Shown: positions 48,768 to 64,000 of the stretch, piece by piece
How the letters are laid out: each line of letters starts with the position of its first letter
How positions within the stretch are numbered: position 1 is the stretch's first letter
From: Cymbomonas tetramitiformis
Lineage: Eukaryota > Chlorophyta > Pyramimonadophyceae > Pyramimonadales > Pyramimonadaceae
Assembly (NCBI GenBank): GCA_001247695.2
Contig: LGRX02035258.1
Coordinates: forward strand, 62,001-126,000
Direction: 5' to 3'
Length of the DNA stretch: 64,000 bases
Notes under the pieces: generated by a model
Databases searched by the model: none
Told to the model about the DNA's origin: nothing
Seen by the model: the letters and a program-made list of their open reading frames with translations, nothing else
Position numbers and translations under genes: made by a program

Positions 48768-48773
48768 TATACA

Positions 48774-48953
48774 ATGAATCTTCCCAAAACCTTCGATAAT
48801 GCATTAATCCGAGTTTTCATGTGGAACCTATTAATCAGCATAATCGCATACGTTATTTTCGACGTAAACAATCCACAAATAATCCCAGCGATGATCCTAT
48901 GTTCTTTGATGATTTACAGTTATTTTAATTTGTACGCGTGCAAGTGTAAATAA
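48774..48953 (+). CDS. Small membrane protein
   Basis: 59 residues starting at an ATG 6 bases after the preceding stop and ending 1 base before the convergent asparagine synthetase end. Two hydrophobic segments (FMWNLLISIIAYVIF and IIPAMILCSLMIYSYF) are separated by a short loop with an NNP turn, and the protein ends CKCK. It is too short for most gene callers. No family recognised. Confidence 0.45.
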   Translation: MNLPKTFDNALIRVFMWNLLISIIAYVIFDVNNPQIIPAMILCSLMIYSYFNLYACKCK

Positions 48954-48954
48954 A

Positions 48955-49701
48955 TCATTCTTTGAAAAGTGACTTTATCTGTCTGGCACTAGGATCGTCC
49001 GATTCGGTCCACTTGGGCATCCACATATAATCGATATGCTTTAGTTCTATGAACCATTTATCATACACCATTTTATAATGATTCACTTCATCTTTTAGAT
49101 TGTCTTTTAAATAATCGATCCAAGAATATCCGACGCCGTCGCTCATTCCATTCTTTTGTCTGTTGTAAATGGATTGTGGAAGATATTCTTCGAATGCTTC
49201 TCTGAGAATGTATTTTTCGATACCATGATAGGATGGCATTTTGATTTCGGGTACTATATCATTGGTTATGTATTCGACAAATGCTTTGTCAAAAAATGGA
49301 ACACGGAGCTCCAACCCATGAGCAGCCGTGCAACGATCCGCTCGGAGAGCATCATACTTGTGAACATCCTTTATAAGTCTGATGGTTTCGTCATGAAATT
49401 CTTGTGTGGACGGTGCGTTGTGAAAATAGATGTATCCTCCAAAAAGTTCGTCGGCACCTTCTCCGGAGAACATCACCTTGATCGATGGAAAGTTTTCTTT
49501 GATGTGTTTTGAAAGGAGATACATAGGCACGGATGCTCGGATGGTGGTGATATCAAATGATTCTAAATGCCATATGACATCATCTAATGACTTCATTCCA
49601 TCTTCCAATGAGAATTCAAACACGTGATGTTCGGAATCCAAAAACTTGGCCATCTCTTCGGCAGCGATCAAATCGGGAGAGCTGAATCCTTTGGTGCCCA
49701 C
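48955..49701 (-). CDS. asnB: Asparagine synthetase, C-terminal part of a frameshifted gene
   Basis: 248 residues by an internal start. The reading frame actually continues upstream to the A9 run at 49716. It covers most of the synthetase domain (MFSGEGADELFGGY near residue 80, then ELRVPFFDKAFVEY and NRQKNGMSDGVGYSW), which uses ATP to activate aspartate. The PPi-loop SGGLDSS lies in the other half. The complete gene would span 48955-50455. As it stands, the two parts cannot form one chain without frameshifting or slippage. Confidence 0.85.
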   Translation of the reverse strand: MGTKGFSSPDLIAAEEMAKFLDSEHHVFEFSLEDGMKSLDDVIWHLESFDITTIRASVPMYLLSKHIKENFPSIKVMFSGEGADELFGGYIYFHNAPSTQEFHDETIRLIKDVHKYDALRADRCTAAHGLELRVPFFDKAFVEYITNDIVPEIKMPSYHGIEKYILREAFEEYLPQSIYNRQKNGMSDGVGYSWIDYLKDNLKDEVNHYKMVYDKWFIELKHIDYMWMPKWTESDDPSARQIKSLFKE

Positions 49702-50455
49702 CGAAAAGGTTTTTATTTTTTTTTGGATGTACCAACTTGGCCGCTACGGATGCGATGATCGATGAATCGAGTCCACCGGATAGAAAGAACCCGTAATCGA
49801 CGTCCGACGGTAGTCTTTTTGATACCGATTGAATTAAAAGGTTGTACAAATTTGTGGAATTTGAAAAGCTTGGTTCCATCTTCAGATAAGGTTTCAAAGA
49901 CAACGGGTTGTATTTTTGAAAGCCGTTCTTCGAATCCCAAGTGTGACCTGGTGGAAACTGTTTGATGGTTGTGGAATTGTCTATCAACGCTTTGGCTTCC
50001 GATGCAAAGTTATACACATTCGGATCTGCTTTGGACTTTCCATAGAATAATGGACGGATACCGATCGGGTCGCGAGCGACGATATCGACTTGCGGACTTG
50101 TGTAAGCAAATGCGAACACACCGTCTAATAGTTTGCAAATGATATCGGGCGAATTATTCTTGTGATTCAACATGTGATAAACGACTTCGCAATCGGAATC
50201 ACCTTTCGTCATTGTGACGGAGTGGTCTTGTAACAGCTGTTTATGGTTGTATATTTCACCGTTACACATGAATGCGGTGTTCGATTGAGTTTGAAAAAAG
50301 GGTTGACTTCCGTTAGAGGATAGATCGTTGATACTGAGACGATCGAAAATAAGTTTTCGGGAGTTCATGAATACGACTTGTTGGTCATCTGGCCCTCTAT
50401 GATTAAGAGATTTTACATTAAGGTCATTGATGTTTATAAATGTTATACCACACAT
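49616..50455 (-). CDS. asnB: Asparagine synthetase, N-terminal part of a frameshifted gene
   Basis: 279 residues, of which the last ~35 lie beyond the frame change and are unrelated to the family. MCGI places the catalytic Cys at position 2 of the glutaminase domain. RLSINDLSSNGSQPF and CNGEIYNHKQL are the glutamine-binding loops. The synthetase domain begins with the PPi-loop FFLSGGLDSSIIAS. It then reaches the A9 run and leaves the frame. Glutamine-dependent asparagine synthetase occurs in other giant viruses. Its relation to the glycan genes is not obvious. Confidence 0.85.
   Translation of the reverse strand: MCGITFININDLNVKSLNHRGPDDQQVVFMNSRKLIFDRLSINDLSSNGSQPFFQTQSNTAFMCNGEIYNHKQLLQDHSVTMTKGDSDCEVVYHMLNHKNNSPDIICKLLDGVFAFAYTSPQVDIVARDPIGIRPLFYGKSKADPNVYNFASEAKALIDNSTTIKQFPPGHTWDSKNGFQKYNPLSLKPYLKMEPSFSNSTNLYNLLIQSVSKRLPSDVDYGFFLSGGLDSSIIASVAAKLVHPKKNKNLFGGHQRIQLSRFDRCRRDGQVFGFRTSRV
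49716..49724 (-). other. A9 run at the asparagine synthetase frame change
   Basis: On the coding strand nine A residues precede T-AAAAA. Removing one A joins both frames exactly (the PKK of one half runs into the IKTFSVGTKG of the other). The run is a classic site for sequencing error, polymerase slippage or programmed frameshifting. Confidence 0.8.
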
Positions 50456-50495
50456 ACACGTTTAATACGATGTAGTTTTAAATGCATTTTAAATA

Positions 50496-51443
50496 ATGAT
50501 TTTTCTATCATTAGGTCAAAATAGGAATCCTGAATTCTTTAAAAAACAGATCGCAGACTTATTGATAAATGACAAAATAGAAGCAATAGTAATAGTAACT
50601 TGGACTTCTGAAAATATTGAAATTCCAGATTATAAAAGCATACATGTTCATAAACTTGAAAGACCGATCGAGTTATACGCAAAACATAAAGAACGATGTA
50701 GTGGATACATAGATGAATGGTTTTGTACGACAGTATTTTATCAGCACTATCTATATAGATATGGTATTGAATATATCAATAAAACATTCGGAAAGGATTG
50801 TTTTATATTGAAATCAAGATTAGATGTATACATATCAACAGAACAAATAGATATTATATATAACTCGGACTATAAAGTAAATTCGAATATACAGACGGAT
50901 ATCAAATATAAAGCATGGATATTAGATACACATCTAACATGTGTGTATTGGTTAAATGATATAATCTTTTATTCGCATTTTGATACGATGAATCAAATAA
51001 TGACTTTTGATAGAGGTCTTCATAAAATATTAGATGGACATAAAGCTTTTTTCTGGAAACATCTTACTACTTACAAAATATATGAAAAGAATGATCCATC
51101 ACAGTACGACAGACTACGAAAATATCCAATACCAAAATCTTATAGAAATGCGGACACGAAAGAAGACATCGATACATTAGAAGCTTTGAGAAAATATTAT
51201 CACATGATAACGGAATGTTTCGTAATGAAAACAATATCAAATGGCGTTTTGTTTCGTAATAATGGTTGTGCATTTGGAGACAATACGTTCGATCCATTTT
51301 GGAATTTACACAAGATCAAGTCACGAAATAAGATCGATTTATATAAGATAAGTTGTAAACATTTCAGATTCAATCTAAAAACAACGTCAGATATGAGTCT
51401 CTTTAAAGATATATATCAAACATACTTTGACAACACGTTATAA
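50496..51443 (+). CDS. Glycosyltransferase-like protein
   Basis: 315 residues. The start MIFLSLGQNRNPEFFKKQI resembles the GQFR-type transferase at 29581. The middle has FILKSRLDVYIS near residue 105 (LD in a DxD-like place) and IFYSHFDTM. It ends with the common NGCAFGDNTFDPFWNLH region. No family number can be assigned. It ends 6 bases inside the convergent 51438 gene. Confidence 0.5.
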   Translation: MIFLSLGQNRNPEFFKKQIADLLINDKIEAIVIVTWTSENIEIPDYKSIHVHKLERPIELYAKHKERCSGYIDEWFCTTVFYQHYLYRYGIEYINKTFGKDCFILKSRLDVYISTEQIDIIYNSDYKVNSNIQTDIKYKAWILDTHLTCVYWLNDIIFYSHFDTMNQIMTFDRGLHKILDGHKAFFWKHLTTYKIYEKNDPSQYDRLRKYPIPKSYRNADTKEDIDTLEALRKYYHMITECFVMKTISNGVLFRNNGCAFGDNTFDPFWNLHKIKSRNKIDLYKISCKHFRFNLKTTSDMSLFKDIYQTYFDNTL

Positions 51444-52244
51444 CAATTTTGAATTCAAATATGGCATCCACTCTTTGAAATGATTCGGATCTTTGTTGTA
51501 CACATTGATAATCGGAACATCGTTCAATAAAGATGCACACACAGAGTAACTTGAATACTTTGTCCACTGAAGGATTTGTGTACATTTCGAAAGACAAACC
51601 ATATCAGTCATGATCGCCGCCCCTGGATCTGTGTTGTTCTCTGGAGCGACTATAGGAATCTTATTACATTGTTTAATAAACTCCATCAATTTATTTTTAT
51701 ATTTTGGTTTGTCACATGCGATGAAGAAATACACATCGGAACTTTGTTCAATGAGTTTCATACAACGTTTTTCAATATATTCAAACTCTTCACCGGTCAT
51801 CACGGTAGGTTTCAAAGGACCCTTCTTCAATTTTTTATATTTGTCACCAAGTCTGCAATGAATTCCAACACATCTGTCGATGTTTTCTGGAATGTTTACA
51901 TTTATACGATCATTGAATATGGTACTTTTGATTACCCGCGAATACAAATTCATCACTTTTTGGGTATCGAAGTCAGCGATTATTCCCGGGTGGTTATTAC
52001 CCGATCCATGCGATTTTAATGTGACATCAATCATGTCTTCTTTGATTTCTTTGATAAAAGTGCATCCGGGTACCGTAATGTAATCACTGATGTCATACAG
52101 ACAATGAGGTTCATCTATTTTCCATAGAAAATACACATCGTTTTTATCATTATGAAGTCGCACGTATGTCAATGAGATGTACAAATCTAAAAGACGATCC
52201 GCCAAACCGGAATGTGCTTGCTGCAATGATAAGTATGTCGTCAT
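51438..52244 (-). CDS. Fucosyltransferase-like protein
   Basis: 268 residues. TYLSLQQAHSGLADRLLDLYIS near the N-terminus is a donor-binding loop. CVGIHCRLGDKYKKLK near residue 126 holds the H-x-R block of GT11/POFUT-type enzymes, and ILQWTKYSSYSVCASL near 228 is the matching C-terminal block. It is a paralogue of 45384-46226, and this copy has a complete N-terminus. Fucose transfer is inferred from the motif only. Confidence 0.6.
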   Translation of the reverse strand: MTTYLSLQQAHSGLADRLLDLYISLTYVRLHNDKNDVYFLWKIDEPHCLYDISDYITVPGCTFIKEIKEDMIDVTLKSHGSGNNHPGIIADFDTQKVMNLYSRVIKSTIFNDRINVNIPENIDRCVGIHCRLGDKYKKLKKGPLKPTVMTGEEFEYIEKRCMKLIEQSSDVYFFIACDKPKYKNKLMEFIKQCNKIPIVAPENNTDPGAAIMTDMVCLSKCTQILQWTKYSSYSVCASLLNDVPIINVYNKDPNHFKEWMPYLNSKLL

Positions 52245-52258
52245 ACCTAAGTATATTG

Positions 52259-52930
52259 TTAGACATCAGTTATTTTTCTTAAAATAAATACGCACATTCC
52301 ATTGTGCCAGTCACTCTCTACACCTAGTATATTTTTAGTTGTGTATATTTCTTTTTTATGTTCAATATTTAGCGATAATTGTATGATAGCTTTGTATGTA
52401 CCGTCTCTTACTTCTTTATCATTCCAATCGTCGACTATGTATATGAAAATATCATCCAAACAATCAATGTAATGAGTTAACGCTTTGCAGTGTGATTGTT
52501 CCGAGTGATCCGCATCATACATGTACATATTGAATCGATCTAATTTAGAAACATCAATATTCCAACAATCGTTATCAATAAACGTTGCATTATTATCTCC
52601 TTTATACATATCAAAATTATGTATAAATTTATTCTTCTTACCGCCAAATCCATTTCCTCTATTGAATTGAGACCAATTATCAATAGCTAGAGCATTTTGC
52701 ATTTTATTTTTATATAGAGCTGAACAAAATGAACTACCTTTCCAAACACCAATTTCGAGATATCTCGTATCCTCAAGACTTGTTATGTTATTGTAAAAAT
52801 GTCGCGTCTTTTGACCAGTCATACCATCTAATGTCAACAATCGCACATCATCGATCTTTGATATTCCTTTTTCTGCATTTTCATAACATTTATCAATATG
52901 ATCAATATATGTTTCGCATGTAGATTTCAT
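52259..52930 (-). CDS. Class I SAM-dependent methyltransferase
   Basis: 223 residues. YLEIGVWKGSSFCSALY (motif I, ~residue 58), AIDNWSQFN, MYMYDADHSEQSHCKAL and IYIVDDWNDKEVRDG follow the same order as the C-terminal part of the 35742-37265 fusion protein, so the two share an origin. The acidic D-A-D-H block is the usual catalytic or metal site. It probably modifies a sugar hydroxyl. Confidence 0.75.
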   Translation of the reverse strand: MKSTCETYIDHIDKCYENAEKGISKIDDVRLLTLDGMTGQKTRHFYNNITSLEDTRYLEIGVWKGSSFCSALYKNKMQNALAIDNWSQFNRGNGFGGKKNKFIHNFDMYKGDNNATFIDNDCWNIDVSKLDRFNMYMYDADHSEQSHCKALTHYIDCLDDIFIYIVDDWNDKEVRDGTYKAIIQLSLNIEHKKEIYTTKNILGVESDWHNGMCVFILRKITDV

Positions 52931-52947
52931 ATAGTCTTCAATATAGT

Positions 52948-53799
52948 TTACCTTTGTGAATAATACGCACGTTCTAGTAACAACGTGAATGCATCCCTTT
53001 TACGATCTTCGGCGTCTCTAAAATCGGCGAAGGTGAACTTTGGACTGAAACGGTACTCATTTTCTAATTTGATAATGTCATCCGGGTAATGCATAAAACA
53101 ATCTGCATATTCGCCGGTGTATTTTACCTTGTATTCAAAATTTAAAAAGACACCGGGACGGTTCGTCGTTCCTGATTGTTCATTCGGTCGCATGATAATG
53201 AAATGATTTTTCAAAAACCGACCTACATGAAATCCTTTGTTTTCAAAAAAGAAACAGAGCATCTTTTCAATGTGACTTTTCAAAATCCGTGTTTCGTATA
53301 TGAACTCGATGATAGACAAACTCTCAACGATGTTTGATTTATGTACGATCATGAAGCGATCACAAAGTCCTCTAAAGTTTTGTCCAATAGGAATTGAGAT
53401 TTGATTTTGTACAAATGGAAAGTTTGAATTGATGTAAACGTTATCGGATCTCGTGACGATGTAATAATCATAATGTAATAAATCGTTTTTGATAAGATCT
53501 TCTTTCAGTCTCCATCTGTAGTATATCATATTAGCATGATTCCATACGGTTCTCTGGAGGTTTTTATGACTCCATTTTGTATTCATAGCGGAATCGAATG
53601 CAACTTCCATAGAGTTTTGATGTGGATGTTCGAAGACGTATTTAGCTAATTCAGTCATCGGGTGATTCTTATTGACGTCTTGATGTGTAACGCACAATAA
53701 CAAATCGGCTTCGTACGGCTTCAAAATGTATTTATTGAGTGTTTCCGAAGGAATGTGTCCACCTCGAAGAGTCCCTATGATGCAAACAAGCAGTTTCAT
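52948..53799 (-). CDS. Glycosyltransferase-like protein
   Basis: 283 residues. The start KLLVCIIGTLRGGHIPSETL and the middle YYIVTRSDNVYINS (RSD at about residue 119 in a DxD-like place) with the later CFFFENKGFH pattern suggest a GT-A type transferase of the same group as 29581-30372. Decayed copies of two pieces of this gene are found near 54857-54948. It is preceded by a decayed gene end at 53806-53857. Confidence 0.55.
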   Translation of the reverse strand: MKLLVCIIGTLRGGHIPSETLNKYILKPYEADLLLCVTHQDVNKNHPMTELAKYVFEHPHQNSMEVAFDSAMNTKWSHKNLQRTVWNHANMIYYRWRLKEDLIKNDLLHYDYYIVTRSDNVYINSNFPFVQNQISIPIGQNFRGLCDRFMIVHKSNIVESLSIIEFIYETRILKSHIEKMLCFFFENKGFHVGRFLKNHFIIMRPNEQSGTTNRPGVFLNFEYKVKYTGEYADCFMHYPDDIIKLENEYRFSPKFTFADFRDAEDRKRDAFTLLLERAYYSQR

Positions 53800-53805
53800 T
53801 AAATA

Positions 53806-53857
53806 CTATCAATATATGAATTATGGATTCCGTACCAACATGTTTTTGTAAATTTCA
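53806..53857 (-). pseudogene. Decayed C-terminus of a gene like 54927-55559
   Basis: On the minus strand this stretch (53813-53850) resembles the last codons and stop of the glycosyltransferase gene at 54927: the same NP-x-FIY ending and the same ATATATTxATAG context. It no longer has an upstream open frame. It marks an earlier copy of the 54927 gene displaced by 53858-54706. Confidence 0.5.
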
Positions 53858-54706
53858 TTATTGATAAGTACTCTTTATTAATTCTTTGTTTTTTATATCA
53901 TAATGATCTATCAAATTAATATAATTATTTGATTTACCGGTTGCTCTGATTTTTAAATAATACATATTACTATCTTTATTTTTTATATTATGTGCATTTA
54001 CAATAGCCTTTAGAAATTGTTCGGCATTATTATTGTTATTTTTTGAACACCAATTTGGAAAATCATTATATCTTGTACATATCTTGTATAATATATTTGA
54101 AGGTGCTATATAAAATCCATTCGCGATTCCTCCCCACTTATTAAAATTTGTAGTATATACACAATTTGATATATAACTATCTTTTATTTCATCTATATTT
54201 ATTGGTTTTAAAATCAATGAATCGGAGGAAACCATCACACAAATATCATATTTTTTTATTGGAAACCTTTTTATACACTCTAATTCACTATATAAACTTC
54301 TCATAAAATTTAAATTCATATTCGTATCCTTGTAATGTGTACATGTAATATCATTATATAAATTTAAATCTTCTTGAAATTCTGTTTCGATTTTATCACA
54401 TTTTAACAAATTTACATCATTATTATCTATATTTATATCAGATTCTTCTATCCTTGATGAATTAATTTTATTGTCCTTACTCAATAATGAATAGTGATAA
54501 ACATCTACTTCAAGCTTATTATGTGTGTTTAGTTTTTTTATAATATTCTCTTGTATGCTTTTATATGTATATTTAAAACTCCTTGGTGCATATCCGTGTA
54601 TAATTACAGCTATCTTATATTTTTTATTTTGATATAATTTTGAATATATCGATTCCTTACTATAAATTAATAATAATATAATTAGAAGTATAAATATTCG
54701 ATTCAT
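53858..54706 (-). CDS. Membrane-anchored glycosyltransferase-like protein, AT-rich
   Basis: 282 residues, visibly more AT-rich than its neighbours and with many Asn codons. The N-terminus IFILLIILLLIY is a signal anchor, the clearest one among the transferases of this island. YKIAVIIHGYAPRSFKYTY follows as the first strand and helix. The centre YDICVMVSSDSLILKP near residue 160 has an SSD in the DxD place. This suggests an insertion from elsewhere. Family number unknown. Confidence 0.5.
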   Translation of the reverse strand: MNRIFILLIILLLIYSKESIYSKLYQNKKYKIAVIIHGYAPRSFKYTYKSIQENIIKKLNTHNKLEVDVYHYSLLSKDNKINSSRIEESDINIDNNDVNLLKCDKIETEFQEDLNLYNDITCTHYKDTNMNLNFMRSLYSELECIKRFPIKKYDICVMVSSDSLILKPINIDEIKDSYISNCVYTTNFNKWGGIANGFYIAPSNILYKICTRYNDFPNWCSKNNNNNAEQFLKAIVNAHNIKNKDSNMYYLKIRATGKSNNYINLIDHYDIKNKELIKSTYQ

Positions 54707-54774
54707 ACTTTTCGTTTATTATCCAAAATAAAATATAATTCATTTTTACTATTTAGTATTTTTTAATATGCACG

Positions 54775-54950
54775 AATCTGCTTGATTTTTGATACTTTGA
54801 ATAGTTCTTATCAAAAGACAAACGGTTTATAGAAGCGACTACGAATGTTGCATATATATTAGCATGATTCCATACGGTTCCTCTGAGGGTCCCTACGATG
54901 CAACCAAGCAATTTCATTAAATACTATTAATATATGAATTCTGGATTCAG
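54775..54950. pseudogene. Chimeric remnants of two neighbouring glycosyltransferase genes
   Basis: 54778-54856 resembles 55484-55562, the start of the 54927 gene. 54857-54882 resembles 53526-53552 and 54883-54948 resembles 53767-53830, both from the 52948 gene and its flank. The middle ~215 bases of the latter are missing. The pieces have many substitutions and no open frame, so they are old duplicates with an internal deletion. Confidence 0.65.
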
Positions 54951-55559
54951 TACTCGATTTCCAATCAAATGAGAAGAATCGAACGGATCCATTCGAGAAA
55001 AATAGCAAACATGCGGACATACTACGATATTGAATTTTTTGATGTGGATTGTTTTGAGGATCTTGAAATCCTCGATGAATGGATATGTATTTTTGAATTG
55101 AATTGTATCTAACACCTTACGTTTTACGGCGAAGGATATACCAACTTTTCCACATTTCAATGATTTACAATTTAATTTTGGTAGTATTTCGAATTTAGAA
55201 TCGCCGAAATATTGTCGGAATATAACACAATCGATACATTCATTTAGTTTTTCTTCGTGACGAAGTTTTTGAATATAATCGTTCGATATAGTATCATCGT
55301 CGTCAATAAAAGATACCCACGGTGTATCTGCCAATGCTATTCCAATATTTCTTATTTGTGATCGATGTGCTTGTTTTTCAACCTGTTTCAATGTAATGCG
55401 GTCATCTTTTGATTCATTCAAAATATCTTCATGAATTTGATCGATTCCATCAAATGCAACTACTAACTTCCAATTCGGATCGGTTTGATTTTTTATACTT
55501 TGAATACTTCTTACCAAAGACAATCGGTTAATCGATGGAACAACAAACGTGACGTACAT
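54927..55559 (-). CDS. Family 2 glycosyltransferase
   Basis: 210 residues from the ATG at 55559; the longer frame enters the divergent fucosyltransferase-like gene. YVTFVVPSINRLSLVRSIQSI, then VVAFDGIDQ, SQIRNIGIALADTPWVSFIDDDDTISN (the metal-binding DDDD near residue 84) form a classic GT2 core, followed by GKVGISFAVKRKVLD and FIEDFKILKTI. Its last codons overlap the remnant stretch described at 54775. Donor is unknown. Confidence 0.75.
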   Translation of the reverse strand: MYVTFVVPSINRLSLVRSIQSIKNQTDPNWKLVVAFDGIDQIHEDILNESKDDRITLKQVEKQAHRSQIRNIGIALADTPWVSFIDDDDTISNDYIQKLRHEEKLNECIDCVIFRQYFGDSKFEILPKLNCKSLKCGKVGISFAVKRKVLDTIQFKNTYPFIEDFKILKTIHIKKFNIVVCPHVCYFSRMDPFDSSHLIGNRVLNPEFIY

Positions 55560-55599
55560 AACAAAAAGTAAAATAAAATTGTATTGTAAAAAACGAATC

Positions 55600-56427
55600 A
55601 TGATAACGATTGAATTCAATAAATGGAGCGGGCGTTTGGGCAATAGATTGATGATTTTGTGTAATGCGATTGAGTATGCACAACGTCACAAACATTCTAA
55701 GATATCATTTAATGATATTCAACAAAGTACAAAATTTTTTAATTTTAATTCAAAAGAGGACATATTTAAAAGTAAAGAAATAACATTACACGGGAACAAT
55801 GATGCATTTATAAAGTCTATGTTTGTCTTGTATCGCAATGCGTATCCAGAAGTGATAGATGAAAAAACAAATGAAAATATAAATGGTTTCCGATTTGATT
55901 TTGATGTCAAAGGAATACATTATTATAAAATCATGCATACGATGGTTAGACCTATATTAAAAATTAAAGAAATATCCATACCGGATGATTGTTTGTTAAT
56001 TCATATACGATGGGGAGACACCGCGAGATTTCCCAAACATCTGCACTATGATCCTAAATTTGTATATTTTGCATTATCAAAAAGATTTTATGACTGTATA
56101 ATACCAAAATATGAAAAAATATGGATAATCGGTGAACCAGGCGATGTGTCGGATACCAATTTTGATTACATTGTTGAAACGTATAAATCAAAGATAATTC
56201 AAATCGATCGCCACAATGACATCATAACAGATGCTAGTTTGATCGCAAGCACAAAGAATTTAGTTATCTCGAACTCAACCTTTTGTATTATGTTTTCATT
56301 ATTGATGAGACCAGAGTCGACCGTATTTGTCCCGGAGATCCATAATGGGATTAAATTGTACGAGAAGGTCTACGAAGGCTCACCATTCAAAGTGGAATAC
56401 GTGAAACATTTATCTTCTCCTATATGA
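55600..56427 (+). CDS. GT11-like fucosyltransferase
   Basis: 275 residues from the ATG at 55600. The N-terminal block NKWSGRLGNRLMILCNAIEYAQ and LLIHIRWGDTARFPKH near residue 130 (the HxRxGD motif) match alpha-1,2-fucosyltransferases (GT11). The C-terminal NLVISNSTFCIMFSLLM corresponds to the conserved S/T-F-x-x-x-x-A end block. No anchor. It overlaps the tail of the convergent FkbM gene by 58 bases. GDP-fucose as donor is family knowledge. Confidence 0.75.
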   Translation: MITIEFNKWSGRLGNRLMILCNAIEYAQRHKHSKISFNDIQQSTKFFNFNSKEDIFKSKEITLHGNNDAFIKSMFVLYRNAYPEVIDEKTNENINGFRFDFDVKGIHYYKIMHTMVRPILKIKEISIPDDCLLIHIRWGDTARFPKHLHYDPKFVYFALSKRFYDCIIPKYEKIWIIGEPGDVSDTNFDYIVETYKSKIIQIDRHNDIITDASLIASTKNLVISNSTFCIMFSLLMRPESTVFVPEIHNGIKLYEKVYEGSPFKVEYVKHLSSPI

Positions 56428-57104
56428 TATATTTCTTTGTATCCATATGACTCCAATAATTCCAGCATATTTTGTGGATCTGAATTGCATTGTTTCATAT
56501 TGGTTTCGTTCCATTCTAATTGAATCGTTGGATGCCATTTAGAAAGACATCTATGGGCACCCAATAATATATTGTATTCCCACCCTTCAGTGTCTATTTT
56601 TATAAAATGTATCGGAATGTTCTTTTCGAAAAATAGATTATCCAAGGTATCGGTTTGTATATCTATGGTGTACGCATTGTCGTTTGAAAATCGAATAGGT
56701 TGGTTGGACATGGTATGAAAACCATTGTTGTGTTTGCATACGGTCAATTTATCAGCGTCCTTTTCTTTAGAGACCGCCATGTTAAATGTTTTTATGTTTT
56801 GAATATCATTGATTTTGATATTTTGTATTAAGATATCATATGTTTCTTTAAAAGGTTCAAAAGAGTAAAAAGTACACATCGGCAAATGTTTTGCTAATAA
56901 AGAATATAATCCAGACTGTGCACCAATGTCAACGATATTAACATTTTGATCTTTGGGTATCAAATCATAAAATGCTTGTATACTATCCAGCTCTACCAAA
57001 TTACCAGACCGTAAAAAAGTACCTTTGGTCTTTTTCCAAGAATCTTCACAAACCATAATCGGTAACGATTGTTTTTCAAACGTGTAACGGTACACACGAG
57101 ACAT
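56370..57104 (-). CDS. FkbM-family methyltransferase
   Basis: 244 residues. NIVDIGAQSGLYSLLAKHL (motif I near residue 57), YSFEPFKETYDIL and the FkbM signature IHFIKIDTEGWEYNILLGA near residue 165 are all present. The family methylates sugar or antibiotic hydroxyls and is common in glycan gene clusters. It overlaps the fucosyltransferase gene tail by 58 bases and starts next to the divergent sugar dehydrogenase gene. Confidence 0.85.
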   Translation of the reverse strand: MSRVYRYTFEKQSLPIMVCEDSWKKTKGTFLRSGNLVELDSIQAFYDLIPKDQNVNIVDIGAQSGLYSLLAKHLPMCTFYSFEPFKETYDILIQNIKINDIQNIKTFNMAVSKEKDADKLTVCKHNNGFHTMSNQPIRFSNDNAYTIDIQTDTLDNLFFEKNIPIHFIKIDTEGWEYNILLGAHRCLSKWHPTIQLEWNETNMKQCNSDPQNMLELLESYGYKEIYHIGEDKCFTYSTLNGEPS

Positions 57105-57159
57105 GATGATGAGTGATAATATACGTAAAATAAAATTACCAAAATTAATAACGTATTAT

Positions 57160-58254
57160 ATGAAAAACATTACTGTATTTGGAATCGGTCGTTTGGGACT
57201 TGTATTGAGTCTTCTATTGGAATCTAAGGGATACAATGTCATGGGCGTGGACATCTTTGAAAATTATGTAAAATTGATAAATGACAAAGAACTAAACTCC
57301 GACGAACCATCGGTGAATGACTTATTAAGGTCTTCGAAAAATCTAAAAGCGACCACCAATATGGATGAAGGTGTCGATCACTCAGATATTTTATTCATTA
57401 TGGTGCAAACTCCAAATTCGGGAGGCGATAAATTCTACGATCACAATGTGTTGTCCAACTTGTTGACGTCTCTAAATTCAAAGAGAGTAAAAGATAAGCA
57501 CATCATAATCGGATGCACCGTCATGCCAGGGTATATAGAATCGATAGGTAAGGAATTGATAAAAGATTGCGAAGGATGTACGTTGAGTTACAACCCAGAA
57601 TTCATAGCTCAAGGAGATATCTTCAATGGACTCTTGTATGCGGATATGGTATTACTAGGGACCGATAGCGAGAAGCTCGGTAAGATCATGACGGAGATTT
57701 ATACGAATATCATGGAAGTATGTCCAAAAATGTGCATCATGAGTCCGACGGAGGCGGAGATCGTGAAGATCTCATTGAATTCGTATATAACAACCAAGAT
57801 CGCATTTGCTAATACGATCGGCGATTTGTGCAAAAGGTACAATTGTGATAAAGATGTCGTTTTGGATGCGATCGGCAGCGATAGTCGTGTCGGGAATAAA
57901 TATTTTAAATACGGATATTCCTATGGAGGACCGTGCTTTCCGAGAGACACCTTGGCTTTCAAACAATTGCTTGAACAAAACGATGTCTACTCTGGAATAC
58001 TAGACGGGACCTATAAGAGCAATGAATTTCATATCAAAGAACAATCAAAGGACTACATTGAGGACATCGTAACGTTTGAAAATGTTTGTTATAAAGAAAA
58101 TTCAAAGGTTGCGATAATAGAAAACAGTGCGAAATTAAAGATCGCTGAACATCTTGTAAAACAAGGGAAGAAAGTGATCATCAAGGACGTTTCAAGTATC
58201 ATCAAAGAAGTTCAAAAAGAATACGGAAATATGTTTGAATATTATATAATATGA
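57160..58254 (+). CDS. UDP-glucose/UDP-ManNAc-type nucleotide-sugar dehydrogenase
   Basis: 364 residues from the ATG at 57160; the frame is open 19 codons further upstream and overlaps the FkbM start. The N-terminal NAD site is VFGIGRLG. The rest of the fold has NPEF (E147), K203 and N207, and the catalytic Cys259 in YGGPCFPRD. The enzyme oxidises a UDP-sugar twice to the uronic acid. Which sugar it takes cannot be read. It would supply acidic sugars for the glycans made by the neighbours. It overlaps the next methyltransferase by ATGA. Confidence 0.9.
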   Translation: MKNITVFGIGRLGLVLSLLLESKGYNVMGVDIFENYVKLINDKELNSDEPSVNDLLRSSKNLKATTNMDEGVDHSDILFIMVQTPNSGGDKFYDHNVLSNLLTSLNSKRVKDKHIIIGCTVMPGYIESIGKELIKDCEGCTLSYNPEFIAQGDIFNGLLYADMVLLGTDSEKLGKIMTEIYTNIMEVCPKMCIMSPTEAEIVKISLNSYITTKIAFANTIGDLCKRYNCDKDVVLDAIGSDSRVGNKYFKYGYSYGGPCFPRDTLAFKQLLEQNDVYSGILDGTYKSNEFHIKEQSKDYIEDIVTFENVCYKENSKVAIIENSAKLKIAEHLVKQGKKVIIKDVSSIIKEVQKEYGNMFEYYII

Positions 58255-59027
58255 CCTTATCGAATGAAATAAAAGAATACTGGAATAGACGTCCATGTAA
58301 TATAAATCATTCTAAAAAAGAAAAGAACACAAAAGAATATTTTGACGAAGTAGAAGCCAAAAAGTATAAAGTAGAATATCACATACCAGGGTTTGCTGAG
58401 TTCGAAAAAACAAATGGATTAAAGATGTTGGAAATTGGTTGTGGGATCGGTACGGATGCGACGAACTTTGTAAGACATGGTGCGAAATACACTGGTATCG
58501 AGTTATCGGAGAACTCCTTAGAAATAACAAAAACAAGATTCGAGGTCTTTGATTTACAAGGTGATCTACGGTGTATGACCGGTGAAGACTTGGAGTATCA
58601 TTTTGAATCGGAAAGTTTTGATTTGGTGTATTCATTCGGAGTCATTCATCATGCGGAGAACCCGGAGATCGTTTTTGATCAGATATACAAAGTTTTGAAA
58701 AAAGGGGGTACATTCAAATTCATGGTGTATGCAAAGAATTCGTGGAAAAAGTTTATGATTGATAATGAGTTGGATCAATATGAAGCTCAAAACCAATGTC
58801 CACAAGCACTAACGTATACAAAAGATGGTATATATGATCTACTAAAAGACAAATACGATAACATCGAAATCAAACAAGAACATATTTTCCCATATAAGAT
58901 TGATGAGTATAAAGAAGGTCGGTATCTGAAACATGAATACTTTGAATCTATGCCGGAAGACGTGTTTAGAATATTAGAGGAAAACATTGGTTGGCATTTA
59001 TGTGTGACGTGTCGCAAATTATTATGA
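58251..59027 (+). CDS. Class I SAM-dependent methyltransferase (UbiE-like)
   Basis: 258 residues. Motif I is MLEIGCGIGTDATNF near residue 60. GIELSENSL ends strand 2 and FDLVYSFGVIHHAENPE is the motif that holds the catalytic region in Methyltransf_11 proteins. It is coupled to the nucleotide-sugar dehydrogenase by a 4-base overlap, so it could act on a uronic acid or its glycoside. Substrate class is inferred only from the neighbour. Confidence 0.85.
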   Translation: MTLSNEIKEYWNRRPCNINHSKKEKNTKEYFDEVEAKKYKVEYHIPGFAEFEKTNGLKMLEIGCGIGTDATNFVRHGAKYTGIELSENSLEITKTRFEVFDLQGDLRCMTGEDLEYHFESESFDLVYSFGVIHHAENPEIVFDQIYKVLKKGGTFKFMVYAKNSWKKFMIDNELDQYEAQNQCPQALTYTKDGIYDLLKDKYDNIEIKQEHIFPYKIDEYKEGRYLKHEYFESMPEDVFRILEENIGWHLCVTCRKLL

Positions 59028-59091
59028 TGTATATCAAATATTGAAAACAGTATGTTCAACGTACAAACTTTTTGTAATTTGCCGTGGTAAT

Positions 59092-59685
59092 ATGATCTAT
59101 CTGCAATATGATTCGAATACTTCTACAGATGGATTTGGTTCACAATTACAAAGAATAATGAGTTTGTACATTGTTTATAAAGAATATAGAGAACAATTCA
59201 ATATTGTATTTGATTTCAAAGGTCTACAATTGATCGAATATCAAGGATTAATGGCAATTGATTCAAATACATACATGGACAATTTTGTTGATATTTGCAA
59301 CAAACGGTTAAATATAGAAACACATAATTCCACAATACCTCATGCTACAAAAAACGTTTCAATAGGACATCTTACGATGAATATACTAGAACAATACAAA
59401 GAATCAAATGTAATCTTAAAATGTATTCATGCATATAGAATCGTAGATTGGAATCATAAATTTTTATACGATAATGTCAAAACGATATATAAAACTCATA
59501 TTTTGAAAAACGAATATTTTACGATTGGTATACATCTTAGAAGAAGTGAGTTATATGCGGTAGATTCAAAAAATCCAAAAAAGAAAAGGATGTTATCGAA
59601 TCAATGGTATATTGAAAATACTAAAAAAGTTATATCAATTTTAGACAAATACAATAAAAAATATGTGATCGAATTATATGTATAA
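59092..59685 (+). CDS. Glycosyltransferase-like protein, N-terminal part, frameshifted
   Basis: 197 residues from the ATG at 59092 (a TTG-started frame goes further). MIYLQYDSNTSTDGFGSQLQRI is a donor-loop start shared with 60019-60231 and with fucosyltransferase-like proteins of giant viruses. FTIGIHLRRSEL near residue 145 is the H-x-R-R motif. The frame ends at YVIELYV, and the rest of the fold follows in the +1 frame to 60002. Confidence 0.65.
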   Translation: MIYLQYDSNTSTDGFGSQLQRIMSLYIVYKEYREQFNIVFDFKGLQLIEYQGLMAIDSNTYMDNFVDICNKRLNIETHNSTIPHATKNVSIGHLTMNILEQYKESNVILKCIHAYRIVDWNHKFLYDNVKTIYKTHILKNEYFTIGIHLRRSELYAVDSKNPKKKRMLSNQWYIENTKKVISILDKYNKKYVIELYV

Positions 59686-60002
59686 TAATACGACAATCTT
59701 CGCTTGGAATAAAAGCTAGAATAAACAGTGATATTATTTTAAGCAAAGACATTGATAAATTACACGAATTTGACCTTTTACCAAATTTAGAAAAATATAT
59801 TAATGAATTTCCGTTAGATACGTTCGATCGAATGATTAACTGTGATATATTGATATCAAGCATATCTAGTTTTAGTGCATGTGCAAGATATCTAAGTCCA
59901 TCTGGTATAGCCGTATATAAACAAGCTTGGTTTCGTTACGATACGAAAGATATAAATTGCGAAGAAAAGGATTTTGAAAAAAAAATATATGATATTTTTT
60001 GA
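59676..60002 (+). pseudogene. C-terminal part of the frameshifted transferase
   Basis: An open frame without its own start encodes RQSSLGIKARINSD, then CDILISSISSFSACARYL and GIAVYKQAWF, the serine-rich end block of the fucosyltransferase-like family, before stopping at 60000-60002. A one-base change between about 59655 and 59685 (an A6 run is at 59656-59661) would restore one gene. It may be decay or error. Confidence 0.6.
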
Positions 60003-60018
60003 TCTTTCTTATTACATG

Positions 60019-60231
60019 TTAGCGGATCCATCGTTTAACAAAAAAATGATTTTTTATGTTCATACATTCTTCACATTTGTCGATAAAATATGGATAATTG
60101 TCACAATTGTTTTCGAATGATTTTATGGGAGTGTATACAAATTGATCTTTATGATGCAAAATCGAACATATGATATTCAAAAATTGAGATCCAAATCCAT
60201 CGGTTCGTGGTGGATTTGTGAAATGTTTCAT
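60019..60231 (-). pseudogene. Truncated transferase copy (N-terminus only)
   Basis: 70 residues beginning MKHFTNPPRTDGFGSQFLNI, matching the TDGFGSQ donor loop of 59092-59685, and then stopping. Only the first quarter of the fold is present. It faces the parent gene tail to tail. It is likely a decayed inverted duplicate, although a short functional peptide cannot be excluded. Confidence 0.5.
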
Positions 60232-60388
60232 ATACTTATGATATATTCATATTGAATAGGCGTGTCATATAAAATAATTTGATGGGCAATTCAAATACAT
60301 GCAACATGTATGACAATCAAAAAACGTAGAATTCCGAATAGTTTATAAGTACGTCGATAACATATTGAAAAAATATAATAAATATAAT

Positions 60389-61702
60389 ATGTCAGCTACA
60401 ATTTATTGTCCCGGTATATTTGATTTGATAACAATTGGTCATTTAAATATAATAGAAAAAGCTAGTAAATATGGAGAAGTTATAATAGGTTTATATTCAG
60501 ATAATTTGAAAGATGACTTAATCAACGACTTCGAAAATAGAAAACAAATCTTACAAAGTTTGAAAAATGTTCATGCGATTATAGAAGAAAATGAATTAAA
60601 CTATCATACAAATCTGTATAAATTAAAACCAAATTATATAATACATGCAGATAATTGGAAGTATAATGATAATATGAAATATCGAAATGATGTCATCAAC
60701 TTGATTAAAGATATTAATTGTGAATTAATTGAAGTTCCATATACAAAAGGAATTTCTACATCAAATATTGTCGCCAAAATTTTAGATCACGATATACTAC
60801 GAAATAATTATATCAGTAAATCTAAAAAATTGAGAGAATTAATATTTTCAAATCAATTAGAGTTCATAATGGAAGCTCATAATGGAATTTCTAGTAAAAT
60901 TGTTGAAAGAACTGGTTTCAAAGCAATATGGGCAAGTGGTTTATGTTTATCGGCATCTTTAGGTTTAAGAGATTCAAATGAAGCATCATGGTCTCAAGTG
61001 ATAGATACTTTAGAATATATGGCCAATTCCGTAAATATCCCGATAATTGTCGATGGTGACCAAGGATATGGCAATTTCAACAATGCTAGAATATTTTGTA
61101 AAAATCTAGAACAGCGTGGTATAGGTGGTGTAGTTTTTGAAGATAAATTATTCCCTAAAACGAATTCATTTATTGAAGTAAATGGAGGGCAAGAATTAGC
61201 GAATATCAATGAATTTTGTGGTAAAATAAGAGCCTGTAAAGATAATCAAATAAACCCATATTTTGTAATTGTAGCAAGATTAGAATCTTTTATAGCGGGT
61301 TTCGATGTGAAACACGCTTTAGAAAGGGCATATGCATATCATGCATCTGGTGCCGATGCGATCTTAGTTCATAGTAAAAAAGGTAATTGCAAGGATATCG
61401 ACGATTTCATGAAAATTTGGGACAATAGATGTCCGATTATAATTGTTCCGACAAAATATTATGCAACTGCAACAGAACACTTTCGGGAAATAGGTATAAG
61501 TACGATAATCTGGGCAAATCATAATTTAAGAACTGCAATAAAACATATGGAGAATACATGTAAAGACATTTTCGAAAATGATAGTTTAATTAATGTAGAA
61601 ACACATATAGCTTCAGTAAAAGATATATTTGAGTATACAGATGAAGATGGATTAAAATCAGATGAAGTCTATTATGAAAATTATGATCCGAAAGTTGTAT
61701 AA
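60389..61702 (+). CDS. Fused cytidylyltransferase and phosphoenolpyruvate mutase
   Basis: 437 residues from the ATG at 60389. Residues 1-130 are a cytidylyltransferase-type nucleotidyltransferase with FDLITIGHLN, in which the first His of the HxGH motif is Thr15, and ISTSNIV at 122-128. Residues 150-437 are PEP mutase: W181, S183, D195, D222, D224, the diagnostic EDK-x5-NS (E251 to S260), R297, E299 and H328. This signature separates mutases from isocitrate-lyase relatives. PEP mutase makes phosphonopyruvate, the entry step of phosphonate synthesis. The fused domain may activate the phosphonate product with CTP, but the altered HxGH could weaken it. Confidence 0.92.
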   Translation: MSATIYCPGIFDLITIGHLNIIEKASKYGEVIIGLYSDNLKDDLINDFENRKQILQSLKNVHAIIEENELNYHTNLYKLKPNYIIHADNWKYNDNMKYRNDVINLIKDINCELIEVPYTKGISTSNIVAKILDHDILRNNYISKSKKLRELIFSNQLEFIMEAHNGISSKIVERTGFKAIWASGLCLSASLGLRDSNEASWSQVIDTLEYMANSVNIPIIVDGDQGYGNFNNARIFCKNLEQRGIGGVVFEDKLFPKTNSFIEVNGGQELANINEFCGKIRACKDNQINPYFVIVARLESFIAGFDVKHALERAYAYHASGADAILVHSKKGNCKDIDDFMKIWDNRCPIIIVPTKYYATATEHFREIGISTIIWANHNLRTAIKHMENTCKDIFENDSLINVETHIASVKDIFEYTDEDGLKSDEVYYENYDPKVV

Positions 61703-62545
61703 TCATGAATATACTAGATTCTTACTTACGCATGTATAATCACAATTTTCACCATATGTATCTAATGCATCATCTATTTTTTTGACTATCTGATTAAAAT
61801 ATTGTTTATTTTCAATCAAATTCAATGCTAACATTACATCTTTTTTCATTAAATTTAATTTAAAACCGTAATTGCAATTCATTTCGATTACATGCTTAGG
61901 TATCCTCTCTGACGTAGCTAAACTTCGTCCAGATGACTTATTGATTACTTCTAATGCAGTATTGACATTGATTTCTAATTTGTTTTTTAAACTATTGATA
62001 CCTTCGCTTGCAATAATCAAATTCGATACATTCAATAAATTATTTATCGATTTTATTGCGTGTCCCGAACCTAAATTTCCAACATAGTTTGAATATGAAA
62101 ATAATTCAATATATTGTTTCAATACTAAATAATCATTATATTGACCACCAACAATAGATGTTAAAGTTCCTAATTCGGCTTTTTCAGGACCACCGCTAAT
62201 GGGACTATCAAGTACAGCAATATTTTTAATATTAAGCATTTTACCAATTGAAATTGTTTTTTCATAATCACCTGATGTTAAATCTATTATGTATTTTCTG
62301 CTATCGTAATAACTTAAATCTTTACAAATGTCAAACACTTCATTTGATGTAGGTAAACATAAGAAGATTACATCACTATTTTGAATCAAATCGTTATGAT
62401 TTCTGTATATTTCAGAGTTATAATGTTTATTAAATTCTATTACTTTATGGAATGATCTGTTATTGATATTTACTTTATATGTTTTGGATATATTTTTTGC
62501 GATTCTAAATCCCATAGTTCCTAAACCAATAAATCCAATTTTCAT
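61703..62545 (-). CDS. Beta-hydroxyacid dehydrogenase (3-HIBADH-like)
   Basis: 280 residues. The NAD(P) site is GFIGLGTMG (residues 4-12). DSPISGGP (113-120) and GSGHAIKSINN with catalytic K165 (159-169) are the family's substrate and active-site blocks. Members reduce or oxidise hydroxy acids such as 3-hydroxyisobutyrate, tartronate semialdehyde and related compounds. Next to PEP mutase, a phosphono-aldehyde or phosphono-keto acid is a candidate substrate, but this is inference. It starts 26 bases from the divergent dioxygenase gene and ends 1 base from the mutase gene. Confidence 0.85.
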   Translation of the reverse strand: MKIGFIGLGTMGFRIAKNISKTYKVNINNRSFHKVIEFNKHYNSEIYRNHNDLIQNSDVIFLCLPTSNEVFDICKDLSYYDSRKYIIDLTSGDYEKTISIGKMLNIKNIAVLDSPISGGPEKAELGTLTSIVGGQYNDYLVLKQYIELFSYSNYVGNLGSGHAIKSINNLLNVSNLIIASEGINSLKNKLEINVNTALEVINKSSGRSLATSERIPKHVIEMNCNYGFKLNLMKKDVMLALNLIENKQYFNQIVKKIDDALDTYGENCDYTCVSKNLVYS

Positions 62546-62571
62546 ATTATATTTAATATTTAATATATAGT

Positions 62572-63294
62572 ATGAATAATCTAAATGAAGTTATGTATGA
62601 ATCTTACAAAAAAAAAGGATTTTTTATAATAAAAGACTTTTGTAATAAAGAACATTTAAATTTTGATATAAATTATAATGATTGTAACATATATAAAGAT
62701 TCTAATAATGTTATTAGTAGAATTGAGAACATTACTTATAAAAATAATAAAATTAATGATTTAAATTTATTGTGTAAAAAGTATTTAAAAAGTATTTTTG
62801 ATAAAGATTTTGAATTATTTAAAGATAAAATCAATCTAAAACCTCCATTAGGTAAAGGTTTTAAGCATCATCGTGATGGAATTTTTAAATTTACAAAAAA
62901 TGATAAAGTTTTAAATGGTTGGTATTCTTATGCTGATAATTTTTGTAATTTTTTGATTTGTTTAGATGATTTTACATTAGATAATGGGACTCTTCAAATA
63001 TATGATATAGAATATAAAACTTTTGAAGAATATTATAATGAAACTAATAAAAACGGTACCCCAATATTAAATGATATATATATAAAAGGAACTCCAACAC
63101 CGTTAATACTTAATAAAGGTGATGCTGTAGTTTTTAATTCTAAATGTGTTCATTTTAGTGAAGATAATAAAAGTAAATGTTCAAGAAGTAGTATATATTT
63201 TACTTATAATGAAGCTGTATTCGGAGATTTACATGAAACATACTTTAATGATAAAATAAATTATAATAAAGAAGTAAATAAATCACTAAATTAA
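62572..63294 (+). CDS. PhyH-type Fe(II)/2-oxoglutarate dioxygenase
   Basis: 240 residues, very AT-rich. The facial triad is placed at H100, D102 (KHHRDGIF) and H194 (VHFSEDN), with R205 as 2-oxoglutarate anchor. Lengths and spacing fit the phytanoyl-CoA dioxygenase family. Known phosphonate members are PhnY and PhnY*, which hydroxylate 2-aminoethylphosphonate. Together with PEP mutase next door this suggests hydroxylation of a phosphonate. No membrane or signal segment. Substrate assignment is by context only. Confidence 0.75.
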   Translation: MNNLNEVMYESYKKKGFFIIKDFCNKEHLNFDINYNDCNIYKDSNNVISRIENITYKNNKINDLNLLCKKYLKSIFDKDFELFKDKINLKPPLGKGFKHHRDGIFKFTKNDKVLNGWYSYADNFCNFLICLDDFTLDNGTLQIYDIEYKTFEEYYNETNKNGTPILNDIYIKGTPTPLILNKGDAVVFNSKCVHFSEDNKSKCSRSSIYFTYNEAVFGDLHETYFNDKINYNKEVNKSLN

Positions 63295-63338
63295 TTAAAT
63301 ATGTTTATATTCTAATTAAGATAAATATATTTATAAAA

Positions 63339-63396
63339 ATGATAATTTTAGTGGCAATAGTTTAAGTTTTATTTCATTATGATCATATCAATTTAT
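63339..63396 (+). pseudogene. Decayed copy of the start of the 63509 gene
   Basis: 58 bases align to the first codons of the cytidylyltransferase gene at 63509 (ATGAxAATTTTAGT, then TTTATTTCATTATGxTCAT) and end with an early stop in the frame. The HYGH block has become HYDH. It is a clear remnant of a tandem duplication that left the gene 113 bases further on intact. Confidence 0.65.
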
Positions 63397-63508
63397 TAAA
63401 AAATTAAAGAAGAATACCCGAATAGTATTATTATTATTGGTTTACATACTAATTAAAGTGTTGTTAAATACAAAGAAATCAAAATTCTCATATTATATAG
63501 TATATAAT

Positions 63509-63907
63509 ATGAGAATTTTAGTACCAATGATTGCAGATTTATTTCATTATGGTCATGTCAGACTACTACAAAGAATAAATGATATGTATCAAAATGATGA
63601 AATTATTATAGGATTAATACCAGACGAAGTTGCGGGTCCATACAAAAGAGTTCCAATAATGAAATATGAGGAAAGATATGAAGTTTTAAAATCGTGTAAA
63701 TATACAAAAGAAATATTAAAATTTGATCAAACGAATACACAGAAATTCATGGATGATTATAATATAACTTATATTATACACGGTCATAATAAAGAAGAAC
63801 ATCAAAAATATCTAAATTTGTATAAAATTTCAAATGATAAATTGATTAGAATTGATTACTGTGATAGTATATCTACTACAAATATAATTGATAGAATAAA
63901 AAATTAG
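63509..63907 (+). CDS. Stand-alone cytidylyltransferase
   Basis: 132 residues from the ATG at 63509; the frame is open further upstream. LFHYGHVRLL (residues 11-20) holds the intact HxGH motif, ISTTNII near the end is the matching nucleotide-binding block, and IIHGHNK is in between. This is the family of glycerol-3-phosphate and phosphoethanolamine cytidylyltransferases. In this cassette it could activate a phosphonate as its CMP ester. It has full catalytic motifs, unlike the domain fused to PEP mutase. Confidence 0.85.
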   Translation: MRILVPMIADLFHYGHVRLLQRINDMYQNDEIIIGLIPDEVAGPYKRVPIMKYEERYEVLKSCKYTKEILKFDQTNTQKFMDDYNITYIIHGHNKEEHQKYLNLYKISNDKLIRIDYCDSISTTNIIDRIKN

Positions 63908-63924
63908 TGTACATTTTAATCTGA

Positions 63925-64000
63925 TTAATTATGATATGTTTTTATATGTTCCATGAATCTTTTCTTTCTATCTATTGGTTTATTTTTTGGTCTTGATAAT
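63925..64000 (-). CDS. 3' end of a gene cut by the window edge
   Basis: The minus strand has an open frame from the right edge to a TAA at 63925-63927. The last residues read KRFMEHIKTYHN after a basic stretch. The frame and the tail-to-tail position with the cytidylyltransferase gene suggest a real gene. The family cannot be named from 24 residues. In a phosphonate cassette it could be a decarboxylase or transaminase, but that is a guess. Confidence 0.4.
   Translation of the reverse strand, partial: LSRPKNKPIDRKKRFMEHIKTYHN

Follow-up and report, generated by a model that had tools for sequence, protein, structure and literature searches.

The fosfomycin biosynthesis protein Fom1 places a cytidylyltransferase domain (CyTase) ahead of a phosphoenolpyruvate (PEP) mutase (PepM), and this CyTase acts on hydroxyethylphosphonate (excerpted text of PMC6697681). 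Pnt clusters of bacterial chromosomes (PntC with a LicD-like protein) hold genes for 2-aminoethylphosphonate (AEP) production and bring together PEP mutase, activation by cytidine triphosphate (CTP) and a LicD-like transferase near glycan genes, and Rice et al. place LicD-like phosphotransferases or glycosyltransferases near phosphonate cytidylyltransferases (same excerpt). The nearest known case is a Borg, an archaeal extrachromosomal element, with a likely fusion of PepM and CTP:phosphoglutamine cytidylyltransferase in a glycoconjugate region; a swap slot goes unmentioned in the excerpted text (PMC12660748). In the Megavirinae, glycan clusters of giant viruses vary between clades, serve rare amino sugars, and contain glycogenes as AT-rich as the genome (excerpted text of PMC10117803). 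Here we describe a phosphonate biosynthesis cassette in a 64,000-nucleotide window of giant-virus-like DNA (contig LGRX02035258.1, positions 62001-126000; hereafter C25074, 163,408 bases in all) from the Cymbomonas tetramitiformis assembly GCA_001247695.2 (851.7 Mb, 25,745 contigs).

This cassette resembles Fom1 in its CyTase-PepM domain order, but its PepM half is of another lineage, distant in our tree from viral-contig fusions with a Fom1-like layout (Fom1 itself is not in the tree), and its partner genes differ, comprising a beta-hydroxyacid dehydrogenase, a PhyH dioxygenase and a LicD protein. PEP mutase, CTP activation and a LicD-like transferase near glycan genes are shared with the Pnt clusters, which however use cytidylyltransferases of the PF12804 type, whereas those of the window are of the PF01467 type and lie in virus-like DNA, and a similarity search of C25074 (all but C25074:50001-52000) showed no aminotransferase. 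Variable glycan clusters, as between clades of the Megavirinae, are seen here as well, whereas the glycogenes of the window are the more AT-rich. The presence of a phosphonate cassette in giant-virus-like DNA is, judging from the predicted proteins, real and well supported; its product, the transfer step and display on virions we infer. Taken as a whole, the locus is quite probably a virus-borne phosphonate tailoring module kept by a giant virus in an exchangeable glycan slot.

Six intact open reading frames (ORFs) make up the cassette over about 5.5 kb, in the order cytidylyltransferase-PepM, beta-hydroxyacid dehydrogenase, PhyH, cytidylyltransferase, phosphonopyruvate decarboxylase (Ppd) and LicD (Table 1). 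An initial annotation of the window had already named the mutase with its motif and catalytic residues, the dehydrogenase, the dioxygenase and two cytidylyltransferase units, and had noted that the block is AT-rich and runs off the window edge; all of this was borne out, with the Pfam domains as stated. Residues 148-419 of the fused protein match the PepM model TIGR02320 at 357.6 bits (NCBI curated equivalog cut-off 319.55), and residues 6-129 form a PF01467 domain (50.6 bits, cut-off 21). Among PDB sequences the mutase half best matches 1m1b, named phosphoenolpyruvate phosphomutase (360 bits) and presumably the mussel enzyme, while the N-terminal part best matches 5x3d (75 bits; chain named phosphoenolpyruvate phosphomutase), which we take to be the CyTase domain of Fom1. 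Seven residues aligned to 1m1b (W181, S183, D195, D222, D224, R297 and H328) are invariant in an alignment of 16 sequences, and we take this Trp, Ser, Asp, Asp-x-Asp, Arg and His to be catalytic. The mutase also contains EDKLFPKTNS, which fits the EDKxxxxxNS motif that served Rice et al. as a filter (excerpted text of PMC6697681). On these matches the protein is a PepM fused to a cytidylyltransferase, and it would convert PEP to phosphonopyruvate. It occurs once in the assembly. That the mutase might instead be a PEP hydrolase or an isocitrate-lyase relative is ruled out by the 1m1b match and by its scores against the phosphonopyruvate hydrolase model (192.3 bits, cut-off 374.4) and the methylisocitrate lyase model (117.8 bits, cut-off 354.4).

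Table 1. Features of the cassette and its slot. Positions are those of the window; extended positions equal the position in L006, the piece continuing rightward on C25074, plus 63000.
Feature	Position	Strand	Basis
Cytidylyltransferase-PepM fusion, 437 residues	60389..61702	+	TIGR02320, PF01467, PDB matches 1m1b and 5x3d
Fom1-type cytidylyltransferase, N-terminal part of fusion	about 60404-60775	+	PF01467
Phosphoenolpyruvate mutase, C-terminal part of fusion	about 60830-61645	+	TIGR02320
Beta-hydroxyacid dehydrogenase, 280 residues, putative phosphonoacetaldehyde reductase	61703..62545	-	PF03446 (NAD_binding_2), PF14833 (NAD_binding_11)
PhyH-type Fe(II)/2-oxoglutarate dioxygenase, 240 residues, PhnY*-like, proposed phosphonate hydroxylase	62572..63294	+	PhyH, NF052437 match
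Stand-alone cytidylyltransferase (CTP_transf_like), intact HYGH	63509..63907 (first ATG)	+	PF01467, 60.2 bits
Phosphonopyruvate decarboxylase (Ppd), 382 residues	extended 63925-65073 (L006:925-2073); 3' end 63925..64000 in window	-	TIGR03297
LicD-family protein	extended 65348-65935 (L006:2348-2935)		PF04991
Strain-variable cargo slot with cassette	59028..64000, on to about extended 66045-66080 (shared F-box-like ORF)		C1/C13591 comparison
Left conserved flank: S-adenosylmethionine methyltransferase; slot starts at its stop codon	58251..59027	+	three assembly copies
Truncated glycosyltransferase-like fragment (name by eye), in all three alleles	60014..60250	-	sequence match

Whether a decarboxylase or an aminotransferase follows the mutase was a question that the initial annotation passed to the sequence on the right; there the decarboxylase was found (Ppd overlaps the last 76 bases of the window and scores 411.4 bits against TIGR03297, curated cut-off 312.5), and a transaminase was not, over the stretches searched. 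The best PDB match of the dehydrogenase is a 3-hydroxyisobutyrate dehydrogenase (1wp4, 147.7 bits), and the LicD protein exceeds the PF04991 gathering score (31.3 against 22.6 bits). The PhyH protein has a single match among 18,950 NCBIfam models at E 0.001, the methylphosphonate hydroxylase NF052437. Of 80 bacterial PepM loci, 8 contain similar PhyH genes, in one case about 8 kb away from the mutase; the six of these proteins scanned all have NF052437 as best match (132-178 bits), and the window protein shares with all eight an invariant HxD...H metal site (H100, D102, H194) and a KxKINxK stretch. By these matches it is a relative of phosphonate hydroxylases rather than a proven member.

The six cassette ORFs have a GC content of 0.196-0.289 and a third-position GC content (GC3) of 0.079-0.194, compared with means of 0.339 (sd 0.039) and 0.349 (sd 0.073), respectively, for 30 other hand-listed ORFs of the window. 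One of those 30, ORF 53858-54706, equals the cassette in AT-richness (GC 0.218, GC3 0.159). Base composition had suggested separate acquisition in the initial annotation, a proposal which the organization of the slot shows more sharply. Contig C1 (418 kb) matches window positions 47844-59012 at about 97-98% identity and C13591 matches the left flank up to window position 59042 at about 91-93%, the flanking methyltransferase being present on C25074, C1 (98%) and C13591 (93%) with a ratio of nonsynonymous to synonymous substitution rates (dN/dS) of 0.13 against C1. Collinear homology resumes at extended position 66081 (L006:3081), at the end of an F-box-like ORF (named by eye, without a Pfam match), with identities of 91.6% and 90.8% on the two contigs. 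Between the flanks, C1 carries an FkbM methyltransferase, a capsular-synthesis-type transferase, a MIOX-like oxygenase (MIOX family, L146:6858-7640) and a nucleotide-sugar transferase, while C13591 carries a mannose-phosphate-isomerase/cytidylyltransferase fusion, an RmlD-HAD fusion and a kinase-like gene; a CTP_transf_like gene different from that of the cassette, without PepM, is in the C13591 slot. Because the flanks match on three contigs while the genes between them differ, three strains or copies hold, on this comparison, three predicted decoration modules at one site. GC is low in all three alleles (measured per 1 kb, it is 0.23-0.35 for the C1 slot and 0.26-0.30 for that of C13591).

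Little else is common to the three slots. The truncated glycosyltransferase-like fragment is about 90% identical to L146:3173-3406, L146:5466-5698 and L148:2520-2741 over a shared length of 220-240 bp and is a possible recombination remnant; the other shared piece is also short, 103 bp (L006:2199-2301) common to C25074 and C13591, and in C1 a 197-bp piece of the right flank is repeated within the slot. By recombining through the shared flanks, or through such repeated slot fragments, virus strains would swap whole modules and so alter coat chemistry. Bacterial capsule and O-antigen cassette switching likewise exchanges whole decoration modules between conserved flanks; here the putative exchange is seen in virus-like DNA.

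The genes around the cassette agree with the virus-borne setting proposed in the initial annotation, although the copy itself is probably endogenous or co-assembled, because the contig is part of a eukaryote assembly and its right end is a high-copy repeat (the last 2.6 kb, of which the assembly has 20 further near-full-length copies, 93-99% identical). C25074 encodes Erv1, topoisomerase II, an ATP-dependent ligase, a SNF2-type helicase and a MutS with a weak HNH match below cut-off. Capsid genes of nucleocytoplasmic large DNA virus (NCLDV) type were found on C1, whose slot-adjoining stretch is the near-identical one described above, and on C375, and none on C25074. On C375, a 23-kb contig of higher GC, they accompany an ATPase-like ORF (L109, C375:1-10000) and one capsid copy is in pieces; C375 is possibly a decaying endogenous copy. 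Ahead of the terminal repeat lie a DNA_pol_B_2 polymerase, an integrase-like ORF below cut-off and ORFs that look structural by eye, two of which were scanned and had no Pfam match. A transposable element within a viral genome may also account for the repeat end.

The same features raise the alternative of a decaying endogenous relic, in which genes recently fossilised in the host genome make no product. Beyond the eukaryotic assembly, the repeat end and the broken capsid gene of C375, an asparagine-synthase-like gene (by eye) is split into two overlapping ORFs at window positions 48955-50455 where C1 has one 499-residue ORF (L147:1342-2841), a possible sign of decay elsewhere in the viral segment. 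Nevertheless, all six cassette ORFs are intact, and genes of the shared region differ from their counterparts on C1, C13591 and C14771 mostly at silent positions: the pooled dN/dS over 13 comparisons is 0.15, with one gene identical and another, with 5 differences, at a ratio of 0.90. One ORF enters this pool twice, being compared with two contigs, and four shared ORFs are absent from it (the split asparagine-synthase-like gene and those at 54927, 55549 and 56370). The shared-region genes look to be under purifying selection on these ratios. We consider a relic unlikely, and even a relic would attest a viral cassette.

Parallel arrangements were sought in bacteria (the 80 PepM loci) and among viral sequences (29 IMG/VR loci). 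The viral loci are not independent, since L110 is the contig of L013 and some others resemble one phage across several samples; moreover, L133, L134, L135 and L137 were matched by the cytidylyltransferase part only, and L001 by PepM only. A mutase fusion occurs together with both Ppd halves and an Fe-dependent alcohol dehydrogenase in 19 of the 29 (both Ppd halves in 22, the alcohol dehydrogenase in 21), LicD-like matches, some weak, occur in seven, and no aminotransferase was detected in any at E 1e-4. Among nine viral loci scanned by one or two proteins each, four contain phage genes (tail sheath, baseplate, terminase, rIIA); L134, one of the four, has no mutase match. L120 has a terminase-like gene, L118 a baseplate-like gene and L001 a tail sheath near LicD and PepM. 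For L122, L124 and L129, 51 neighbouring ORFs compared with PHROGs gave glycan and nucleotide genes, and none of the 25 families listed, out of 29, was structural. Searching IMG/VR with the window fusion, directly and by alignment, returned only L001 and L013, with no fusion of the window type for this query; Ppd and PhyH had no match there, and the stand-alone cytidylyltransferase had two weak loci. Two unverified faecal records labelled 'Bacteriophage sp.' (L094 and L095; MT836947 and MT837901) encode fused homologues at 32% identity, of which L094 is not counted as phage, its YidC-like ORF (by eye), transaminase-like gene, mutase and Ppd in a row looking bacterial.

In a tree of 102 rows (two of 104 omitted as too short; bootstrap not fully settled), the window PepM pairs with P0001 (100/98) within a 42-row clade (100/93) that consists of the window protein and 41 database proteins with PF01467 and PF13714. 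The mutase is thus placed among PF01467-fused PepM proteins and apart from the assembly's own PepM; that the clade (P0001-P0043 proteins) is viral is a guess. Fusions from viral contigs lie on the far side of the tree with a gut-bacterial fusion, so that the two kinds of fusion look like separate events in this tree, while the PepM of phage contig L001, which has a long branch, falls on the same side as the window protein. The assembly's own PepM and Ppd stand side by side on C14242 (L008:4555-5460 and 5635-6798), each in one open frame and with transposon-like ORFs nearby. This PepM joins proteobacterial rows on a long branch with modest support (84/82 and 91/81), and 92% of its length matches a EukProt protein at 100% identity; phosphonates may also be made by the source eukaryote itself. 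A host origin of the viral PepM is not supported, as the two group apart and share 47% aligned identity.

Following decarboxylation of phosphonopyruvate to phosphonoacetaldehyde, which Ppd would catalyse, the later steps are proposed. The dehydrogenase would reduce phosphonoacetaldehyde, the phosphonate counterpart of malonic semialdehyde, to 2-hydroxyethylphosphonate; the PhyH dioxygenase could hydroxylate the phosphonate product; a cytidylyltransferase would activate it with CTP to a cytidine monophosphate (CMP)-phosphonate; and LicD would transfer the phosphonate onto a sugar made by neighbouring glycosyltransferases. Glycans of the particle or of the infected cell would then bear C-P groups resistant to phosphatases. 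We favour this route through 2-hydroxyethylphosphonate, CTP activation and LicD transfer, because no aminotransferase was found, the cassette has a 3-hydroxyisobutyrate-type dehydrogenase, and in the viral parallels, too, a dehydrogenase is used and no aminotransferase was detected. As for the activating step, the stand-alone cytidylyltransferase may be the working enzyme of the two, since its HYGH is intact and the fused copy is unusual.

Several observations, besides the split gene described above, weigh against such a working module. The fused cytidylyltransferase reads TIGH at the HxGH site (HPGH in Fom1), is missing part of a loop, and may be weak or altered; at the first position of this site 11 of the 16 aligned sequences have H, four have N and the window protein has T, and a phosphopantetheine adenylyltransferase aligned with it likewise has TxGH. 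Neither the 80 bacterial nor the 29 viral loci yielded a beta-hydroxyacid dehydrogenase like that of the window, so that the role proposed for this enzyme has no precedent in these data. The PhyH score against NF052437 (48.5 bits) is far below the cut-off of 500, and a profile of the window and eight bacterial PhyH proteins retrieved only general PhyH relatives from PDB sequences, ectoine hydroxylase first. The modest LicD match covers only profile positions 2-49 of 227, the first fifth. The early-promoter motif AAAATTGA is not enriched (18 found against 19.2 expected in the window, 2 against 2.75 in L006), and a screen of upstream words for a promoter motif gave nothing clear. Lastly, as regards the route, an AEP-transaminase-like gene is present in 60 of the 80 bacterial PepM loci and in 7 of the 8 that bear PhyH.

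This last count, together with the best PDB match of the stand-alone cytidylyltransferase (ethanolamine-phosphate cytidylyltransferase 3elb, followed by choline-phosphate cytidylyltransferase A), would suit AEP as the product, optionally 1-hydroxylated by PhyH, with the transaminase supplied by the host and the dehydrogenase serving something else. The assembly does have its own PepM-Ppd pair, and five exon pieces on C7660, which may form one gene, together resemble a class-V aminotransferase. However, C25074 has no transaminase on the stretches searched, an exon-by-exon search of the assembly, itself a weak test, gave no PhnW or AepZ match over cut-off (best single piece 61.5 against 360.8), and the viral parallels carry a dehydrogenase and no detected transaminase. 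AEP is in our judgement a rather unlikely product. It is still less probable that PepM and Ppd make a phosphonate while the stand-alone cytidylyltransferase and LicD carry out a separate phosphocholine or phosphoethanolamine decoration within a mixed glycan-tailoring island, as the Kennedy-pathway matches of the former, a weak LicD match to a cholinephosphotransferase model (39.5 bits, cut-off 225) and the PepM-free CTP_transf_like gene in the C13591 slot might suggest, since the cassette genes are contiguous and alike in low GC3, viral contigs L001 and L013 have LicD-like genes next to PepM, and such genes are also found near bacterial phosphonate cytidylyltransferases (excerpted text of PMC6697681). 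A misassembly, or bacterial contamination attached to viral DNA, which the deviant base composition might suggest, is very improbable given that the cassette lies inside a 163-kb contig, two other contigs show its flanks in the same order, the slot is low in GC in all three alleles, and none of the best 80 of 567 GTDB matches starts before query residue 117, so that all of them leave most of the fused cytidylyltransferase uncovered.

With a phosphonate tailoring module preferred over these alternatives, a wider picture can be put forward tentatively, as a realistic prospect: giant-virus strains would exchange full decoration modules, including a whole C-P pathway, at a serotype-like slot, phosphonylated glycans would be carried on particles or infected cells, and phages would have evolved the same strategy with another mutase lineage and dehydrogenase. 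Carbon-phosphorus chemistry is uncommon, and the search for the producers of environmental phosphonates continues; should the complete route be virus-encoded, viruses are possible makers of phosphonoglycans, and phosphonate groups enter the contest at the virus-host surface. For giant-virus-like DNA, the three-allele slot offers a direct example of coat-chemistry switching that can be tested. Virus-encoded phosphonate-degradation genes have been reported (PMC13188868, in excerpt), as have desert gypsum viral genes 'related to phosphonate metabolism', the kind unspecified in the excerpted text (PMC9500819). The terms 'phosphonate' and 'phosphono' are absent from the main texts of PMC10117803 and of a Chem Rev review of giant-virus glycans, and a search of open full texts (supplements, subscription papers and preprints being outside it) found no paper on virus-encoded phosphonate synthesis.

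Some further features of the contig were noted. The homology between C1 and the window that begins at about position 47844 starts only at L147:231 (L147:1-230 being unmatched), and C1 has about 550 extra bases (L147:8311-8861) near window position 55920, within the gene at 55549. In the AT-rich ORF 53858-54706 every compared codon is identical to the C1 copy (L147:6246-7094) while nearby ORFs reach dS values of 0.139, which suggests a recent exchange. Polinton-like or virophage-like genes (DNA_pol_B_2, integrase-like, and structural-looking by eye) stand beside giant-virus genes on C25074, and similar ORFs are present on C4301 (L007, L009, L010 and L149 for the two contigs together). Just left of the window, L012:2-9999 (GC 0.437) contains very long ORFs of 1715 and over 1566 residues, which possibly encode surface proteins.

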